This document shows, piece by piece, positions 12,430 to 23,614 of a DNA stretch of 24,180 nt. Each line of letters opens with the position of its first letter. The first letter of the stretch is position 1. The notes under the pieces are model-generated. The model did no database searches and was not told where the DNA came from. It was given only the letters and a program-made list of their open reading frames with translations. The stretch covers positions 1 through 24,180 of the IMG/VR virus record IMGVR_UViG_3300028007_000008; one strand, given 5' to 3'. This DNA comes from a virus. The translations under genes were made by a program, and so were the position numbers.

Positions 12430-13017
12430 ATGGGATTGTCCCCTGCAGCTGCCAAGGCGCGCCGCAAGCGCACGCCTTCGACGATCGACCGGCTCGATCC
12501 GGAGATCCGCGAGCTGATCAGCCAGCTGCGGATCGACAAGGGCTGGACGATCGACGAAATCCGCGAGCAGCTCGTGCAGATCGGGCAGGGACATGTCAGT
12601 CGCTCTGCGTTGGGGCGCCACGTTCGCTCGCTCGAGGACGTGAGCGCGGATCTGCGCGAGACACAGGTCTACGCCGAAGCGCTCGCCAAGCAGGCGGGCA
12701 ATTCCGACCAGAGTCGCATGCTCGATCTCAACGCCCAGCTGCTGCAGGCGAACATGTTCCGCCTGATGCTGGCGGCCAAGGATGGCGAAGGTATCCAGCT
12801 CGGGCCTAAGGACGCCAAGGACTTCGCCGATGCGCTGCGCTCGATCGCGCTGACCCGCAAGACGGACATGGACCTGATCGAGAAGGCCGAGAAGCGCGCG
12901 GCCGAGAAGGCGACCAAAGAGGCGGCTGAGAAGGCTGTGAGCGCGGCCCGGACCAAGGGGCTGTCGCGCGATACGGTCGAGGCGATCCGCTACGCCGTGC
13001 TGGGGAGCGAGGGATGA
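12430..13017 (+). CDS. DUF3486 family protein, Mu gp27-like, probable small terminase subunit
   Basis: The product has 195 residues. The N-terminus is basic (KARRKRTPSTIDRLDPEI), followed by LISQLRIDKGWTIDEIREQL and HVSRSALGRHVRSLED, a helix-turn-helix. A long helix (about 75-130) and a highly charged, alanine-rich coiled coil (EKAEKRAAEKATKEAAEKA, about 148-170) follow, ending in GLSRDTVEAIRYAVLG. This is the DUF3486/Mu gp27 family, encoded just before the large terminase and taken as its DNA-recognition partner. The expected order is interrupted here by two small cysteine-rich genes between it and the large subunit. The next gene begins in its stop codon (ATGA). Confidence 0.88.
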   Translation: MGLSPAAAKARRKRTPSTIDRLDPEIRELISQLRIDKGWTIDEIREQLVQIGQGHVSRSALGRHVRSLEDVSADLRETQVYAEALAKQAGNSDQSRMLDLNAQLLQANMFRLMLAAKDGEGIQLGPKDAKDFADALRSIALTRKTDMDLIEKAEKRAAEKATKEAAEKAVSAARTKGLSRDTVEAIRYAVLGSEG

Positions 13018-13463
13018 TTGACGAGAACATGATCCTGCCGTGCGACGTGAAGCTGCCGCCGGCAACGACCATCAAGGCCGGCTGCACGCTGGGCACACTG
13101 CTCCTGGCGCTCAAGGCGGTCGAGCGACCTTCGCAGTTCGGTACTGACCTGCAGAACGTGCCGGAGTGCGCGGACTGCATTCACCTGCAGGGCAAGACCA
13201 CCTGCGGCCGGCCGGTGCCGAGTTACTGGAACCCGGCAACCAACCAACGCAGATCACGCGTCGCCGCCTCGATCGAGATGGAGCGCACCGATCGCAAGGT
13301 GTTGGGCAGCAAGCGCGTCCGCTGCGGCACGGCCGGGATCTACTTCGAGGCGAAGGGCCCGCCAATCGGCGGCAAGTCCGGCACCGTGATCATCGATGAG
13401 GCGGCACATTTCCTGCCCGGCCGAGACACTGTCGGCGACAGCGATGGGGACGATGGAGCATGA
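13014..13463 (+). CDS. Small cysteine-rich phage protein with P-loop-like C-terminal tail
   Basis: I do not recognise a characterised family for this 149-residue protein. The middle has CADC at residues 52-55, Cys64 and Cys104 (CG in both late sites) around a variable loop with NPATNQRR and ASIEMERTDR. A four-cysteine pattern of this sort, ending in GIYFEAK, occurs in small zinc-binding phage proteins. The last 35 residues are different: GPPIGGKS (115-122) fits the Walker A consensus GxxxxGK[ST], and it runs directly into GTVIIDEAAHF, almost the same as the Walker B segment of the terminase two genes downstream. The two motifs are far too close together for a normal ATPase. The C-terminus is acidic. 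It overlaps both neighbours by four bases (ATGA), so it is part of the packaging operon. Confidence 0.65.
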   Translation: MIDENMILPCDVKLPPATTIKAGCTLGTLLLALKAVERPSQFGTDLQNVPECADCIHLQGKTTCGRPVPSYWNPATNQRRSRVAASIEMERTDRKVLGSKRVRCGTAGIYFEAKGPPIGGKSGTVIIDEAAHFLPGRDTVGDSDGDDGA

Positions 13464-13684
13464 GCGGTGCTGGCAACCCCTGCCCGGTTAAGGGCTGCAC
13501 CGCGCACGCGAAGCCAAACCAGCTGATGTGCTGGCCGCATTGGCGCCGGGTGCCGAAAGCGCTCAACCACGCGGTCTTTGACACCTATCGCAACCTGCGC
13601 CGTGATCCGGCTGCCTACCGGCAGGCGCGTGATGCGGCGATTGCCGCGGTGGAAGCGAAGGAAGCGGAAGAGCGCGCCCGATGA
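13460..13684 (+). CDS. Small zinc-finger-like phage protein
   Basis: The product has 74 residues with ATGA overlaps at both ends. Its N-terminal half contains CPVKGC (Cys8, Cys13), then MCWPHWRRVP (Cys24, His27), giving a C-x4-C-x10-C-x2-H set that could hold one zinc ion. A conserved-looking segment KALNHAVFDTYRNLRRDPAA follows, and the rest is a charged helix. Similar tiny proteins appear near terminase genes of many phages, but I know of no proven function. It lacks the second His/Asn of an HNH nuclease, so DNA or protein binding is more likely than cleavage. Confidence 0.65.
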   Translation: MSGAGNPCPVKGCTAHAKPNQLMCWPHWRRVPKALNHAVFDTYRNLRRDPAAYRQARDAAIAAVEAKEAEERAR

Positions 13685-15237
13685 GGCTCTCTCCCGAAGA
13701 CCAGGCGAAGCGTGACGCGCTGATCCGGGCGCGCGAGATCCAGGGGGATCGCGCGGCTTCGGAAAACGCGATCATGCGGCTGCCCAAGGGCGACCTGCTG
13801 CTGGGCTACCAGCAGAAGCCGGTGAACATGCTGTTCGCGGGCGTCTCGCTCCTCGTCATCGAGAAATCGCGGCGCATCGGATTGACGTGGGGCATGGCGG
13901 CCTATGCCGCGCTGCGCGCCGCCAGCTCCACTGCGGCAGGCGGCCAGAACGTCTGGTACATGGGCTACGACAAGGACATGACCCTCGAGTTCATCGAGGT
14001 CTGCGCCATGTGGGCTCGGGCGTTCGGCCATGTCGCCGGCGACGTCGAGGAGGACGAGGTCCTCTACGTCGACGACAATGGCAAGGAACAGGGCGTCAAG
14101 GCGTTCTCGATCCGCTTCGCCTCCGGCTACCGGATCACGGCGCTGCCGAGCGTGCCGCGGGCACTGCGCGGCAAACAGGGCATCGTCATCATTGACGAAG
14201 CCGCGTTCCACAAGAACGTGAACGAAGTGATCAAGTCGGCCATGGCGCTGCTGATCTGGGGCGGCCAGGTCGTGGTGATTTCCACGCACGACGGCGTCTC
14301 CAACCCGTTCAACGTGCTGCTGGATGAGATCAAGGCGGAGAAGCGCAAGGGCGCCTGGCTCAAGATCACGTTCCGCGATGCGATGGATGCCGGGCTCTAT
14401 GAGCGGGTCAGTCTGGTCGCCAAGACCAAGGGCACAGAGCTGCCGCCCAAGGACCAATGGGAAGCGGATATCCGCGCTGCCTATGGCGATGACGCGGAGG
14501 AAGAGCTCGACTGCATCCCGAAGGTCGGCTCGGGCTCGCTCATCAGCCTCGAGGACATCATTGCGGCCGAGCATGACGACTGCGGCATCCCGGAGCTTTA
14601 CCAGGGCGGGCTTTGCTACATGGGCCGCGACGTGGCGCGGCGGCGCGACGGCCAGATCCAGATCGTGGGCGAGCTGCTGGGCGATGTGCTGTGGGAGCGC
14701 GATGGCTATCGTGAGACCGGGCAGAGCTTTGCGCATCAGGACGCCTGGTTCGATGCCCGTTTCGCCGATCGCCGCATGGTGCAGGCGCGCGTTGACCAGA
14801 CCGGCATGGGCGAGAAGGTGGTGGAAGATCAGATCCGCAAGCACGGCGCGACGCGTGTCGTGGGTGTGCTGCTGACCGGCCCCAACCGTGTCGACCTTGC
14901 CCTTGGCCTCGCTCGGCGGTTCCAGGAGCGCAAGATCCGGATCCGGCACGACGCGCGGACCCGTGCCGATCTGATGGCGATCAAGAAGATCGGTTCGGAA
15001 GAGTCGGGCGGGATCCGCATCATCAACGACGGCGCCGTCCACGCGGACGAATTCTGGGCCTATTCGCTGATGAGCCAGGCCTGCGACATGGCGGGCGCGC
15101 TCTATGAGTACCGCGGCATCCGCGTGGGCGGTCGTTTCGAGGGCGGCCCGAAGCGCGGGCAGCCCGGATGGGTCCATCCCGACGATATCGGCCGCGAGAC
15201 GCGCGGCACCCGCTTCGGCATGCCGGGAGCCTGGTAA
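13681..15237 (+). CDS. Terminase large subunit, Mu gp28-like
   Basis: This 518-residue DNA-packaging motor starts at an ATGA overlap. The ATPase part shows the terminase-type Walker A (EKSRRIGLTW, residues 61-70), Walker B with catalytic Glu (GIVIIDEAAF; Asp172, Glu173) and the coupling motif VVVISTHDG around 199-207. The RNase H-like nuclease part shows three spaced acidic residues: GRDVARRRD (Asp317), VDQTGMGEK (Asp372) and HADEFWAYSLM (Asp456). All catalytic elements are present and the length is near that of Mu gp28. The enzyme moves DNA into the procapsid through the portal encoded downstream and cuts it. It overlaps the following mini-gene by one base (TAATG). Confidence 0.93.
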   Translation: MRLSPEDQAKRDALIRAREIQGDRAASENAIMRLPKGDLLLGYQQKPVNMLFAGVSLLVIEKSRRIGLTWGMAAYAALRAASSTAAGGQNVWYMGYDKDMTLEFIEVCAMWARAFGHVAGDVEEDEVLYVDDNGKEQGVKAFSIRFASGYRITALPSVPRALRGKQGIVIIDEAAFHKNVNEVIKSAMALLIWGGQVVVISTHDGVSNPFNVLLDEIKAEKRKGAWLKITFRDAMDAGLYERVSLVAKTKGTELPPKDQWEADIRAAYGDDAEEELDCIPKVGSGSLISLEDIIAAEHDDCGIPELYQGGLCYMGRDVARRRDGQIQIVGELLGDVLWERDGYRETGQSFAHQDAWFDARFADRRMVQARVDQTGMGEKVVEDQIRKHGATRVVGVLLTGPNRVDLALGLARRFQERKIRIRHDARTRADLMAIKKIGSEESGGIRIINDGAVHADEFWAYSLMSQACDMAGALYEYRGIRVGGRFEGGPKRGQPGWVHPDDIGRETRGTRFGMPGAW

Positions 15238-15413
15238 TGGAACTGCAGGTGCAGGTCGCTGTGACTGTCAACGAGATCGAGAAGCTCATTGCCGCGCTCA
15301 AATCGGCGCCAGGCGCGGATCAGCGTGCCGTGGCCGTGGCGAGGACGCATTTCGAGACTGCGCTGCTGTGGACCGCCAACGCAGCGGCCGGCGAGGCTAT
15401 CATCAATGGCTAG
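15237..15413 (+). CDS. 58-residue protein, candidate Acb2/Tad1-hairpin-like cyclic-nucleotide sponge
   Basis: The ATG at 15237 overlaps the terminase stop by one base; the gene ends inside the portal start region (8-base overlap). A longer in-frame start within the terminase gene is not needed. The protein is two helices joined by a short turn: TVNEIEKLIAALKSA and then DQRAVAVARTHFETALLWTA. The second helix, with the R-x-VAxARTHFExALLW pattern, resembles the C-terminal helix of Acb2-type anti-CBASS proteins and other members of the Acb2/Tad1 hairpin group, which sequester cyclic oligonucleotide signals and assemble as helical oligomers. The full ligand-binding set cannot be checked by eye. 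That it is a gene is likely (tight coupling on both sides); the function is a hypothesis. Confidence 0.6.
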   Translation: MELQVQVAVTVNEIEKLIAALKSAPGADQRAVAVARTHFETALLWTANAAAGEAIING

Positions 15414-17112
15414 TGCTCCTCCTACGCTGGTCGATCCGTACGGCCGCCCGCTGATCCGTGAAGCGCTGACACGCGAGATCGCCGCGCCTTCGCGCACCTC
15501 AGTTCGCACCATCCAGTCCGGCCATCCGGCGCAGGGACTTGATCCCGGCAAGCTGGGCACGATCCTGCGCGCGGCCGAGGACGGCAACGCAATCGCGTAC
15601 TTCGAGCTGGCGGAGGAAATGGAGGAGAAGGACCTCCACTATCTGTCCGTGCTCGGTACTCGGAAGCGCGCCGTCTCGCAGCTGCCGATCGAGGTCGAGC
15701 CGGCCGACGACAGCGCGCAGGCCAAGGATGACGCCAAACTGGTCGAGGACTGGCTTGACCGCGATCTCCTTGAGAGCGAGCTGTTCGACATCCTCGACGC
15801 GATCGGCAAGGGCGTGAGCACGGTCGAGCTGATCTGGCAGACGACATCCTCGCTCTGGACGCCTAAGCTCCTCAAGTGGCGCGATCCGCGCTGGTTCGAA
15901 TTTGACCGGACCGATGGCGAGACCTTGCTGCTGCGCGGCGGCGAGCAGGGCATCGGCGAGTCTACGCCGTTGCCGGCTGCAAAGTTCATCACGCACTTCC
16001 ATCCGGCCAAGAGCGGTCTGCCGATCCGCAGCGGTCTCGCCCGCATCGCGGCGTGGGGCTACATGTTCAAGAACTTCGCGATCAAGGACTGGGTGACCTT
16101 CCTCGAGGCGTATGGCCACCCGATCCGGATCGGCAAGTACGGCCCCAACGAGAGCGAAGAGAACAAGTCGATCCTGGAGCGGGCGCTCTACCAGCTCGGC
16201 TCCGACGCGGCCGCCGCGTTCCCGGAGACAATGTCGGTCGAGTTCGTCGACCGGAAGGCCGGCACTGCGCCCAACGATCTGTGGCGTAGCCACGCCGAGT
16301 ACTTCGACCTGCAAATCAGCAAGGCGGTGCTGGGACAGACCAACACGACCGATGCGCAGGCGGGCGGGCTCGGCTCCGGCCAGGCGAACGTGCACAACGA
16401 CGTGCGCGGCGACATCGAGCGGGCCGATGCCAAGCTGCTGGCCGCGACGCTCAACCGTGACCTGGTCGTGCCACTGGTGATGCTCAACCGGGGCATGCGG
16501 GACAAGTATCCGCGCATCAAGATCGGCCGTCCCGATCCGGTCGACGTCGAGAGCATGGTCAAGTCCGCCACCGCCTTGGCTGGGATGGGCGTGGAGATCG
16601 ACGCGGATGAAGTGCGCGAGCGCGCCGGCCTTCCGGGCGCGAAAGCAGGCGGCAGGATGCTCGTGCCGGGAAGTCAGATGAGCCCTGATCCGGCGACCCC
16701 TCCAAACGGCGCTGGAACGCCCGCAGGAGCGCGTGGAGGCGCTGTCCCCGCCAAACCGGGCGCGGCAGCGCTCTCAAGGCCTCTTAAACCGGCTGACGGG
16801 GCTACTGAAGCCGCTCTCCAGAGTGCAAGATCGGGTGGTGGCGACGGAAATGGCGGGCAGAGCGTCCGAGAGCCCGATGCCATCGCGCTCACGACGGAAG
16901 AGGCGCTCGGCGACTGGGAGGCCCTGATCAACCCGCTGCTCGATCCGGTGGAGACGCTGATCGGGGACTGCGGCGATCTTGGCGAGCTGCAATCGCGCCT
17001 GGTCGAAGTGCTGGGCGACATGGATGTGAGCGCCTTCGCCGATCTTCTGGCCAAGGGGCAATTCGCGGCTCGGATTGCAGGGCTGGCGAGCCCGCAGCCG
17101 TCCGGAGACTGA
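15406..17112 (+). CDS. Portal protein, DUF935 / Mu gp29-like
   Basis: I place the start at ATG 15406 (568 residues), eight bases before the end of the mini-gene; the in-frame extension further upstream gives an Arg/Pro-rich stretch that is plainly out-of-frame reading. The core has the DUF935 pattern: AEDGNAIAYFELAEEMEEKD followed by HYLSVLGTRKRAVSQLP, KLLKWRDPRWFEFDR, FITHFHPAKSGLPIRSGLAR and VTFLEAYGHPIRIGKY. AEYFDLQISKAVLGQTNT and VHNDVRGDIERADAKLLAAT follow. The protein forms the dodecameric ring at the capsid vertex through which DNA passes. The region near residues 415-500 is Pro/Gly/Ala-rich and looks disordered, before a final helical domain. The length is a little above Mu gp29 because of this linker. 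Confidence 0.92.
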   Translation: MASAPPTLVDPYGRPLIREALTREIAAPSRTSVRTIQSGHPAQGLDPGKLGTILRAAEDGNAIAYFELAEEMEEKDLHYLSVLGTRKRAVSQLPIEVEPADDSAQAKDDAKLVEDWLDRDLLESELFDILDAIGKGVSTVELIWQTTSSLWTPKLLKWRDPRWFEFDRTDGETLLLRGGEQGIGESTPLPAAKFITHFHPAKSGLPIRSGLARIAAWGYMFKNFAIKDWVTFLEAYGHPIRIGKYGPNESEENKSILERALYQLGSDAAAAFPETMSVEFVDRKAGTAPNDLWRSHAEYFDLQISKAVLGQTNTTDAQAGGLGSGQANVHNDVRGDIERADAKLLAATLNRDLVVPLVMLNRGMRDKYPRIKIGRPDPVDVESMVKSATALAGMGVEIDADEVRERAGLPGAKAGGRMLVPGSQMSPDPATPPNGAGTPAGARGGAVPAKPGAAALSRPLKPADGATEAALQSARSGGGDGNGGQSVREPDAIALTTEEALGDWEALINPLLDPVETLIGDCGDLGELQSRLVEVLGDMDVSAFADLLAKGQFAARIAGLASPQPSGD

Positions 17113-17676: not shown

Positions 17677-19344
17677 GTGGCGGGCACGACACCAGAGCCT
17701 TTGCCGCGCCTTGATCCGGCGGAAGCGATCGCGTTCTTCCGCGCCAAGGGCTGGGAGATCGCCTTCGACTGGCGTGACGTTTGGGCGGAGGAGAACATCC
17801 GCGCCTTCACCGTTGCGAAAGCGATGAGCCGCGACCTTCTCGAGGACATCCGCGGTGCCGTCGATACCGCACTCGCCGAAGGCCAGACGCTGCAGCAGTT
17901 TGCCAAGGAACTTGCGCCGCGCCTGTTTGCGAAGGGCTGGTGGGGCAAGAAGCTGATGACCGACCCGGCGACGGGCGAACAGAAGGTTGTCCAGCTCGGC
18001 AGTCCGGCGCGCCTTCGCACGATCTATGAGACCAACCTGCGCACGAGCTACATGGCTGGGCGCTGGCAGCGGATCGAGCGATCGAAGGCACTGTTCCCGT
18101 TCATCCGGTATGTCTCGGTGCTCGATGGGCGGGAGCGGCCGCAGCACCATGCCTGGCACGGCACGATCCTGCCGGTCGACCATCCCTGGTGGGACACGCA
18201 CTTCCCGCCTTGCGGCTGGGGCTGCCGGTGCGATGGTCAGCCGATCAACCGCCGGATCATGGAGCGCCGCAACTGGAAGAGCGAGGCGCCGCCCGAATTC
18301 GCCAAGCGCAACTATGTCAACAAGCGGACCGGCGAGGTCATCCGGGTCGAGGCGGGCATCGATCCCGGCTGGGGCTATAACGTGGGCAAAGCGCCGCACG
18401 ATGGGATCGCGCCTGCGCCGCGGCTGGGTGGCGACATGGGCGAACTCAATGCGGCGACGTTCACTGCGGCTGAGTTCGAAAAGGTCAAAGGCTTCTTCGG
18501 CGGGTTCGGTCTTGAGGATCGCGCGGCGGCGATGAAAGGCAAGATCTGGCAGGACGCAGCCGGTTGGCCGGTGCCGATCTCGCTGGGGCTGCTGCGCGGG
18601 CCGACAGGGCGCATGGTCAAGCTACGCCGGATGGAGCTGCTTGCACTCACGCTTGCCGGCCAGGTGCTGTTGCAACCCGATACGATTAGCTGGCTCTGGA
18701 TCAAAGGTGAGGATGGCCGGCTGCTCCTCGTGCGCCGCTACATGTCTGCCGCCGGCGTGGTCGATATCGGTGGTAGCTTCTGGCGTTGGCGCGCCGGCGC
18801 TGCGCGTGGGCTTGCCCAGGGCAAGCTCATCTGGACGGCTGAGAAGGGCGTGCTGGCTGCCTATGATCCTCATCAGGCCAGGCATCCGAAGGGAAGCCGG
18901 GACGGCGGACGGTTTCGCAGTACCGGGCGCTCTGCTGCTGCGGCGGCGCTTTCAGGGGCTGAGCTTCCGCAGCACGTCAAGCCTTTCAACACGGCGATCC
19001 TTGGCGCGGTCTCCAGCGATGCTGCTGCCGTTGCAGCTAGGGCCGGTCTCGATATCAGCGGCAGAGGTGTGCTGCTCGACCAGTCCGGGGCAAAGCACAT
19101 CCTTCAGCGGCACGGCCCGAGGGCGCAACGTCGCAAGGGCGAAGATCCCGTCGGACCATCCGACATGCTTTCGGCCCATCGCCTGCTCAATGCCGCGCAT
19201 TCCTTTTCCGATGAGGGTGTGCATCGGCATGGCATGACACGCATCGCGGCCCACACGACTGGCTCGAATGGCAAGCCGATGCGGATCATCGTCGATCGCA
19301 GCAAGCGGAGCCTGCGGATCGTCACCATGTTCCATGTGGTTTGA
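17677..19344 (+). CDS. Head morphogenesis protein (Mu gp30/F, SPP1 gp7 type) fused to two PBECR-like nuclease domains
   Basis: The product is a 555-residue protein starting at GTG 17677. Residues 15-185 are the minor head protein: FFRAKGWEIAFDWRDVWAEE, YETNLRTSYMAGRW (117-130), VLDGRERPQHHAWHG and the cysteine cluster PPCGWGCRC (Cys179, 183, 185). About 285-385 looks like a PBECR2-type (barnase-EndoU-ColicinE5/D-RelE-like) domain: WPVPISLGLL (297 on), PDTISWLW (334-341) and LLLVRRYMSA. Next is RHPKGSRDGGRFRST (from 402), a short motif common in phage head proteins and possibly a cleavage or linker site. About 455-555 resembles PBECR3: AKHILQRHG (His474, His479), DMLSAHRLL, and the TMFHVV end. 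Mu F is only about 425 residues, so the C-terminal 370 residues are an accessory cargo. Such domains may be packaged in the capsid and act as a toxin on delivery; catalysis is inferred. Confidence 0.85.
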   Translation: MAGTTPEPLPRLDPAEAIAFFRAKGWEIAFDWRDVWAEENIRAFTVAKAMSRDLLEDIRGAVDTALAEGQTLQQFAKELAPRLFAKGWWGKKLMTDPATGEQKVVQLGSPARLRTIYETNLRTSYMAGRWQRIERSKALFPFIRYVSVLDGRERPQHHAWHGTILPVDHPWWDTHFPPCGWGCRCDGQPINRRIMERRNWKSEAPPEFAKRNYVNKRTGEVIRVEAGIDPGWGYNVGKAPHDGIAPAPRLGGDMGELNAATFTAAEFEKVKGFFGGFGLEDRAAAMKGKIWQDAAGWPVPISLGLLRGPTGRMVKLRRMELLALTLAGQVLLQPDTISWLWIKGEDGRLLLVRRYMSAAGVVDIGGSFWRWRAGAARGLAQGKLIWTAEKGVLAAYDPHQARHPKGSRDGGRFRSTGRSAAAAALSGAELPQHVKPFNTAILGAVSSDAAAVAARAGLDISGRGVLLDQSGAKHILQRHGPRAQRRKGEDPVGPSDMLSAHRLLNAAHSFSDEGVHRHGMTRIAAHTTGSNGKPMRIIVDRSKRSLRIVTMFHVV

Positions 19345-22685: not shown

Positions 22686-23108
22686 GTGTCCACCTTCGCC
22701 AACGTCGCAGACATGCGCGCTCGCTTCGAGGAGCCGGACCTTGTCCAGCTTACCGATGTCGACGGCGTGGGCGTGGTTGATGAAGACAAGGTCGAGGTGA
22801 AGCTGGCGTCGGCCGACGCGCTGATCATCGGGTACATCGCCGCGCGCTACCGCGACGTAAACACCTTTGCGGGCAACACGATCCTGAAGGATGTGGCCTG
22901 CGACTACGCGTTCTCGCTGCTCTGGAAGACGGACCTGCCGAAGTGGGTCGAGGATCGGCGCAAGCTGGCGCTCGACACCCTTAGCCGCATCGCGAACGGC
23001 AGTATCAAGCTCGACCAGGGCACCGAGGAAGCGCAGCCGCGCCCCGGCCAGATCCTGACCAGCGGGCCGGAGCGGCGCTTCACCCGCGATAGTCTGAGTG
23101 GCTACTGA
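22686..23108 (+). CDS. Mu gp36-like head-tail connector, DUF1320 family
   Basis: The 140-residue product starts at GTG 22686 after an AGGAAG site. The pattern FANVADMRARFEEPDLVQLT, KLASADALIIGYIAARYRDV, LKDVACDYAFSLLWKTDLPK and a final RRKLALDTLSRIANGSIKLD is that of DUF1320 (Mu gp36), a small helical adaptor thought to act at the head-tail interface. The C-terminus (PGQILTSGPERRFTRDSLSG) is a typical flexible extension with the RxFTRDSLxxx ending common in the family. It overlaps the next gene by one base. Confidence 0.9.
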   Translation: MSTFANVADMRARFEEPDLVQLTDVDGVGVVDEDKVEVKLASADALIIGYIAARYRDVNTFAGNTILKDVACDYAFSLLWKTDLPKWVEDRRKLALDTLSRIANGSIKLDQGTEEAQPRPGQILTSGPERRFTRDSLSGY

Positions 23109-23614
23109 TGTCCGTCTCATTCCGCGTCACGTCTGAAGGCGGTCTGGCGATCGAGCGCAAGCTCGCCGGCCTCGTCAAGGCGTTCGGTGATCTTGAGCCG
23201 CTGATGCAGGGCTTCGGGATCTATCTCGAGAGCGCGACGATCGACCGCTTCGAGAATGAGCGCGGTCCGGACGGCCAGCGCTGGAAGCCTTCGCTTCGCG
23301 CGCGGCAACAGGGCGGCAAGACGCTGACCGACAGCAGCCAGCTGCGCTCCTCGATCACGTCCGTCGCAGGCAGCGAAAGCGTCGAGGTGGGCACCAACAA
23401 GATCTACGGCGGCATCCACCAGTTCGGCGGCACGATCCGCGCGAAGAATGCCGAGTATCTCACGTTCCGCCTTCCCGGCGGGCTCGGCGTGCGGCGCGTG
23501 AAGTCCGTCAAGATGCCGGCGCGTCCCTTCCTGGGGCTTTCGAGCGAGGATGAGAACGAGCTGCTCGCTCTCACTGCCGACTATGCCCGCCAGCAGCTTG
23601 GGGGTGCAACATGA
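23108..23614 (+). CDS. Phage virion morphogenesis protein (Mu gpG / P2 gpS-like)
   Basis: The product has 168 residues. The family order is visible: FGDLEPLMQGFGIYLESATI, DRFENERGPDGQRWKPSLRA (the RFxxExxPDGxxW core), GKTLTDSSQLRSSITSV, VGTNKIYGGIHQFGGTI and the closing MPARPFLGLSSEDENEL. These proteins are needed for head completion or head-tail joining. In Mu the corresponding gene G lies between F and I; here it lies after the gp36-like gene, a placement seen in other Mu-like prophages. It overlaps the next gene by four bases (ATGA). Confidence 0.9.
   Translation: MSVSFRVTSEGGLAIERKLAGLVKAFGDLEPLMQGFGIYLESATIDRFENERGPDGQRWKPSLRARQQGGKTLTDSSQLRSSITSVAGSESVEVGTNKIYGGIHQFGGTIRAKNAEYLTFRLPGGLGVRRVKSVKMPARPFLGLSSEDENELLALTADYARQQLGGAT

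Follow-up and report, generated by a model that had tools for sequence, protein, structure and literature searches.

A mini-gene at the terminase-portal junction of a Mu-like virus encodes a putative hairpin-only relative of Acb2

Introduction

Acb2 is a homohexameric viral protein that takes up cyclic di- and trinucleotides, the alarm molecules of bacteria, and inhibits CBASS. It was found in the phages PaP2 and PaMx33/41, and its canonical references are T4 Vs.4 (PDB 7UQ2), PaP2 p26 (PDB 8H2J/8IXZ), the Pfam family PF24729, and PHROG 717. In T4 Acb2, the Y8A substitution disrupts dinucleotide binding (PMC12657218) and T68M reduces the affinity of the protein (PMC12657230). The trinucleotide site is the central channel at the trimer interface, as in Tad1 (PMC12043709). 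Phages deleted for acb2 escape CBASS via major capsid mutations (PMC10419184), and the Panoptes defense is triggered when Acb2 sequesters dinucleotide decoys (PMC12657218). Here, we describe a short gene of a Mu-like virus whose product resembles the helical hairpin of these proteins.

Results

A 58-codon gene overlaps both TerL and portal

The window, that is, the whole stretch of DNA analyzed, is a 24,180-base IMG/VR virus record carrying a Mu-like late module. This module includes a Gp27-type terminase small subunit gene (12430-13017), the terminase large subunit gene TerL (13681-15237, plus strand; Pfam Terminase_6N/6C and PHROG terminase large subunit), a Mu-type portal gene (15406-17112, plus strand; PF06074 Portal_Mu, E=1.2e-101), and a gene for a gpF-type head protein (17677-19344). 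Between TerL and portal lies the mini-gene (P0001; 15237-15413, plus strand), which runs from an ATG at 15237-15239 to a TAG stop at 15411-15413 and is predicted to encode a 58-aa hairpin-only Acb2-like protein on the basis of its open reading frame, PF24729 match, conserved homologues, purifying selection, and AlphaFold2 model. The TerL stop codon TAA (15235-15237) and the mini-gene ATG share one A (TAATG), and the end of the mini-gene overlaps the portal start, an ATG at 15406, by 8 nt. A Shine-Dalgarno-like GGGAG is located 7 nt 5′ of the mini-gene ATG, and a GAGG 9 nt 5′ of the portal start. The preliminary description had placed a frame of 58 residues here and had called it translationally coupled to both neighbors; the coordinates, the length, and both overlaps were borne out, whereas coupling is what this geometry suggests. 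A sigma-70 promoter-like site was not found around the mini-gene, which would be consistent with transcription inside the late operon, and the single terminator-like site detected there is no more than chance expectation.

Two other genes of the module drew our attention. Between the terminase subunit genes, a cysteine-containing 149-aa gene (13014-13463) matched neither Pfam nor PHROG; its relatives are found near the hairpin gene in the sphingomonad phages L167, L179, and L183, which suggests a shared late accessory gene set. At its C terminus, the gpF-type protein has a long extension that weakly matches the nuclease domains PBECR2 (E 0.029) and PBECR3 (E 0.05), possibly a fused toxin-like domain.

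The mini-gene product resembles the Acb2 hairpin

The sole Pfam match of the 58-aa protein was PF24729 (Acb2_Tad1_hairpin; E=1.2e-5, 25.9 bits, profile positions 21-55 of 58), with a score 1.1 bits below the curated cut-off of 27 bits. All ten family members scanned matched the same profile; most hairpin-family members scored 14-26 bits, and the cut-off was exceeded by the junction orthologue of G007 (27.3 bits) and by the more distant relative L187 (29.0 bits). A tblastn comparison of the 58 aa with 50,697 phage records (E threshold 10) yielded 12 matches, all weak, and each of the five examined was a canonical Acb2. The frames of Lsp-JY19, MR5, MQM1, and Zuri reached 57-72 bits to PF24729, and the MKPT02 frame (KIKGYRDLTQSEID...RDLALARTHLEDACIRAVRAVARP) is Acb2-type by its motifs. 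Public records label the Acb2 homologues of the Pseudomonas phages MR5, MR6, MR7, pphageBV72, and others "NAD/FAD-utilizing enzyme" or, for MKPT02, hold no same-strand annotation.

A 20-sequence alignment of the hairpin family showed T37, A42, and A49 to be invariant and D28, R30, A33, F39, E40, T41, L44, and W45 to be at least 90% conserved. Codons 28-37 (D28-Q-R30-A-V-A-V-A-R36-T37; 15318-15347, plus strand) cover the loop and the start of helix 2, a segment common to canonical Acb2, and codons 38-45 (HFETALLW; 15348-15371, plus strand) form the remainder of the helix-2 motif. By hhalign, family columns 28-52 were placed on residues 59-83 of T4 Acb2, so that the invariant T37 aligned with T68. 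Searches of the PDB by phmmer with the single protein and with two family profiles retrieved no Acb2 chain, and NCBIfam gave no match for the 58-aa protein, nor for T4 Acb2 itself.

A canonical Acb2 was found in G008 (L014 contig; TerL 74%, portal 66%), which is closely related to the window phage. This 78-aa protein (L194:2003-2239) scored 69 bits to PF24729, and its tblastn matches include PaP2 p26 and PaMx33/41. Its gene directly follows a 589-aa frame, which from its sequence is a probable tail sheath, and the TerL-portal junction of G008 holds a zinc-finger-like gene instead of the hairpin gene.

Judged by sequence, the mini-gene product is homologous to the Acb2 hairpin and is not a canonical Acb2. 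The preliminary description had likened its second helix to that of Acb2-type proteins and had named the lack of a profile match as grounds for dropping the idea; the sole Pfam match, shared by all ten homologues, and the weak tblastn matches to canonical Acb2 uphold the resemblance.

Structure prediction and a possible ligand

AlphaFold2 predicted two helices, 2-23 and 29-51, folded as a two-helix hairpin with a mean pLDDT of 90.2, in agreement with the 58-residue helical hairpin proposed earlier. Foldseek found no significant match for the monomer model in the PDB and BFVD, a null result that is uninformative because a lone two-helix hairpin carries too little information.

The dinucleotide pocket of Acb2 uses N- and C-terminal elements that are missing here, and the trinucleotide sites are in the hairpin core; hence, a cyclic trinucleotide such as cA3 would be the most likely ligand. 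The hairpin form thus appears to have retained the trinucleotide core and lost the dinucleotide pocket. Arg67 of PaP2 Acb2, which we take to be a trinucleotide-site residue, would align with R30 of the window protein. Binding of 3′,3′-cGAMP is not expected, because the tyrosine-bearing N-terminal dinucleotide segment is absent, and the replacement of the C-terminal motif could mean that ligand binding has been lost or changed. The earlier reading as an Acb2-type sponge is partly supported: the family kinship holds and makes the function plausible, but 3′,3′-cGAMP, one of the ligands then put forward, is not expected to bind.

We favor, with moderate confidence, the reading that the mini-gene is a mobile accessory gene encoding a minimal relative of the Acb2/Tad1 core that consists of the hairpin only. 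This protein is a putative sponge for CBASS signals and is possibly trinucleotide specific. It would be made late, alongside the packaging genes, would oligomerize via helix 2 as Acb2 does, and would sequester the cyclic oligonucleotide alarm signal of a CBASS-type defense.

The loss of both the N-terminal and the C-terminal conserved Acb2 segments, together with the near fixation of F39-E40-T41 and W45 of helix 2 in the hairpin branch, could also be explained by an Acb2 hairpin that has diverged, ceased to bind CBASS signals, and taken on another role, for example with an ADPR-type signal or a protein. However, the polar D-x-R...T segment is still conserved with canonical Acb2, and T37 aligns with T68 of T4 Acb2, the substitution of which reduces affinity for nucleotides (PMC12657230). 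We regard such a change of role as rather unlikely.

The gene is patchily distributed and changes its position

Relatives were collected by portal and TerL similarity, the distance from TerL stop to portal start was measured, and the intervening frames were read. Homologous frames of 57-62 aa, with 28-50% identity, occupied the same TerL-portal junction in several relatives, namely L008/L165 (Novosphingobium sp. NDB2Meth1), L010, L013, L029, L031, L032, and L034, and in L102, where the homologue is followed by one more inserted frame. L007, L018, and L088, which share 73-84% portal identity with the window, lack the mini-gene, and their TerL and portal overlap directly. The family profile matched in eight of 40 related virus records, seven of which were hairpin-only and the remaining one of which was the canonical frame of G008. 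Six of the seven hairpin-only copies were at the TerL-portal junction; the seventh, in G020 (L195:1912-2136), was approximately 9 kb downstream, after a gene matching the window ORF at 23108-23614.

A degenerate-pattern search recovered further homologues in Sphingopyxis, Sphingobium, Sphingomonas, Novosphingobium, and Moraxella. In the unrelated sphingomonad phages L167 and L177, the hairpin gene follows a head-tail-adaptor-like gene (recognized by a weak PHROG match in L167 and by sequence likeness in L177), and in Moraxella phages it lies upstream of the terminase genes. No member of the family was found in the plasmids searched. These observations show that the mini-gene is accessory and dispensable and moves between late-operon sites.

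The overlap with both TerL and portal, and the location of related genes, which in most of the phages examined is a head, connector, or terminase module, would suit a small head or packaging accessory, a partner of terminase or portal that shares the two-helix hairpin fold by coincidence. This explanation is disfavored because close relatives, including the three with 73-84% identical portals, do not have the gene, and because unrelated phages carry it elsewhere, beside non-homologous neighbors (head-tail adaptor, terminase small subunit); moreover, unrelated accessory genes occupy the same junction. Patchiness rules out a packaging protein as the main reading, and we consider a coincidental packaging partner quite improbable. 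Conservation as a terminase or portal partner, which the preliminary description had named as evidence against a sponge, was thus not what we found. The check that it had proposed, whether Mu-like relatives keep a small ORF at the junction, showed homologues in several of them, none in L007, L018, and L088, and unrelated genes in others.

The junction itself is a variable slot, in which other genes replace the hairpin gene in L011/L097, L119, L014/L015/L017/L019, L012, L023, and L096. These alternatives are a 39-aa zinc-finger-like gene, a gene for a lipid-desaturase-like protein (PF10520, E=7.6e-34), a frame whose similarity to uracil-DNA glycosylase falls slightly below the cut-off, and other small frames.

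The mini-gene is under purifying selection

Pairwise dN/dS values of the homologues ranged from 0.09 to 0.58 and were mostly 0.2-0.4; the mini-gene homologues are therefore under purifying selection. Although the mini-gene is short and the window is rich in chance ORFs, a chance short ORF of a G+C-rich genome is scarcely credible and is ruled out by conservation, given dN/dS well below 1 and protein-level conservation among phages that place the gene at different sites. This confirms that the mini-gene is a real, conserved protein gene.

Discussion

A SMODS nucleotidyltransferase was detected above the cut-off in 31 of 299 host-family genomes, many of the matches being partial; CBASS-type signaling therefore occurs among the likely hosts. 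A SAVED-domain search of six host genomes gave no match and neither did its positive control, making that search uninformative. We speculate that late expression might counter signals raised by capsid assembly, which would agree with the capsid mutations of acb2-deleted escape phages (PMC10419184).

A further-reaching proposal, which we offer tentatively, is that the sphingomonad and Moraxella phage proteins constitute a previously undescribed hairpin-only branch of Acb2, which would have shed the dinucleotide pocket and act as a cyclic-trinucleotide-only sponge, the hairpin core alone being sufficient. If this is true, such a sponge would evade dinucleotide-based counter-counter-defenses such as Panoptes. 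Should trinucleotide binding require no more than the hairpin core, the dinucleotide and trinucleotide sites of Acb2 would be separable modules and phages could drop the former, which would matter because Panoptes responds to Acb2 soaking up dinucleotide decoys. The analysis also points to a set of very short putative anti-defense genes slightly below present profile cut-offs, and it suggests that further accessory genes may be sought at the TerL-portal junction of these phages.

Among described families, two PHROGs of unannotated function were matched by part of the 20 hairpin members: PHROG 15810 (55 aa) by five, with a best E of 2.8e-4, and PHROG 14434 (53 aa) by four, with a best E of 1.8e-3; the window protein matched neither. 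With Tad1, which we know here by description (PMC12043709), the mini-gene product shares the helical hairpin that PF24729 spans; unlike Tad1, the 58-aa, helices-only protein has no N-terminal antiparallel beta-sheet. Hairpin-family proteins are shorter than Acb2 (51-62 versus 74-93 aa). Every hairpin member aligned lacks the short N-terminal helix segment of Acb2, IKGYR-x-L-x-x-x-E-I-D-x-x-N-x-x-K, which holds Y8 of T4 and a conserved K23, and the C-terminal R-A-[IV]-x-x-P of most canonical Acb2 proteins is replaced by x-A-N-A-x-G-G-E in most hairpin members. T4 Acb2 itself has D61, and not arginine, at the position of the family R30. Like Acb2, the mini-gene is a small phage gene for two long antiparallel helices, and its product carries the D-x-R-x-[LVI]-[AS]-[IVL]-x-x-T motif, which spans the loop and the first part of helix 2 and is common to most canonical Acb2 proteins and most hairpin members.
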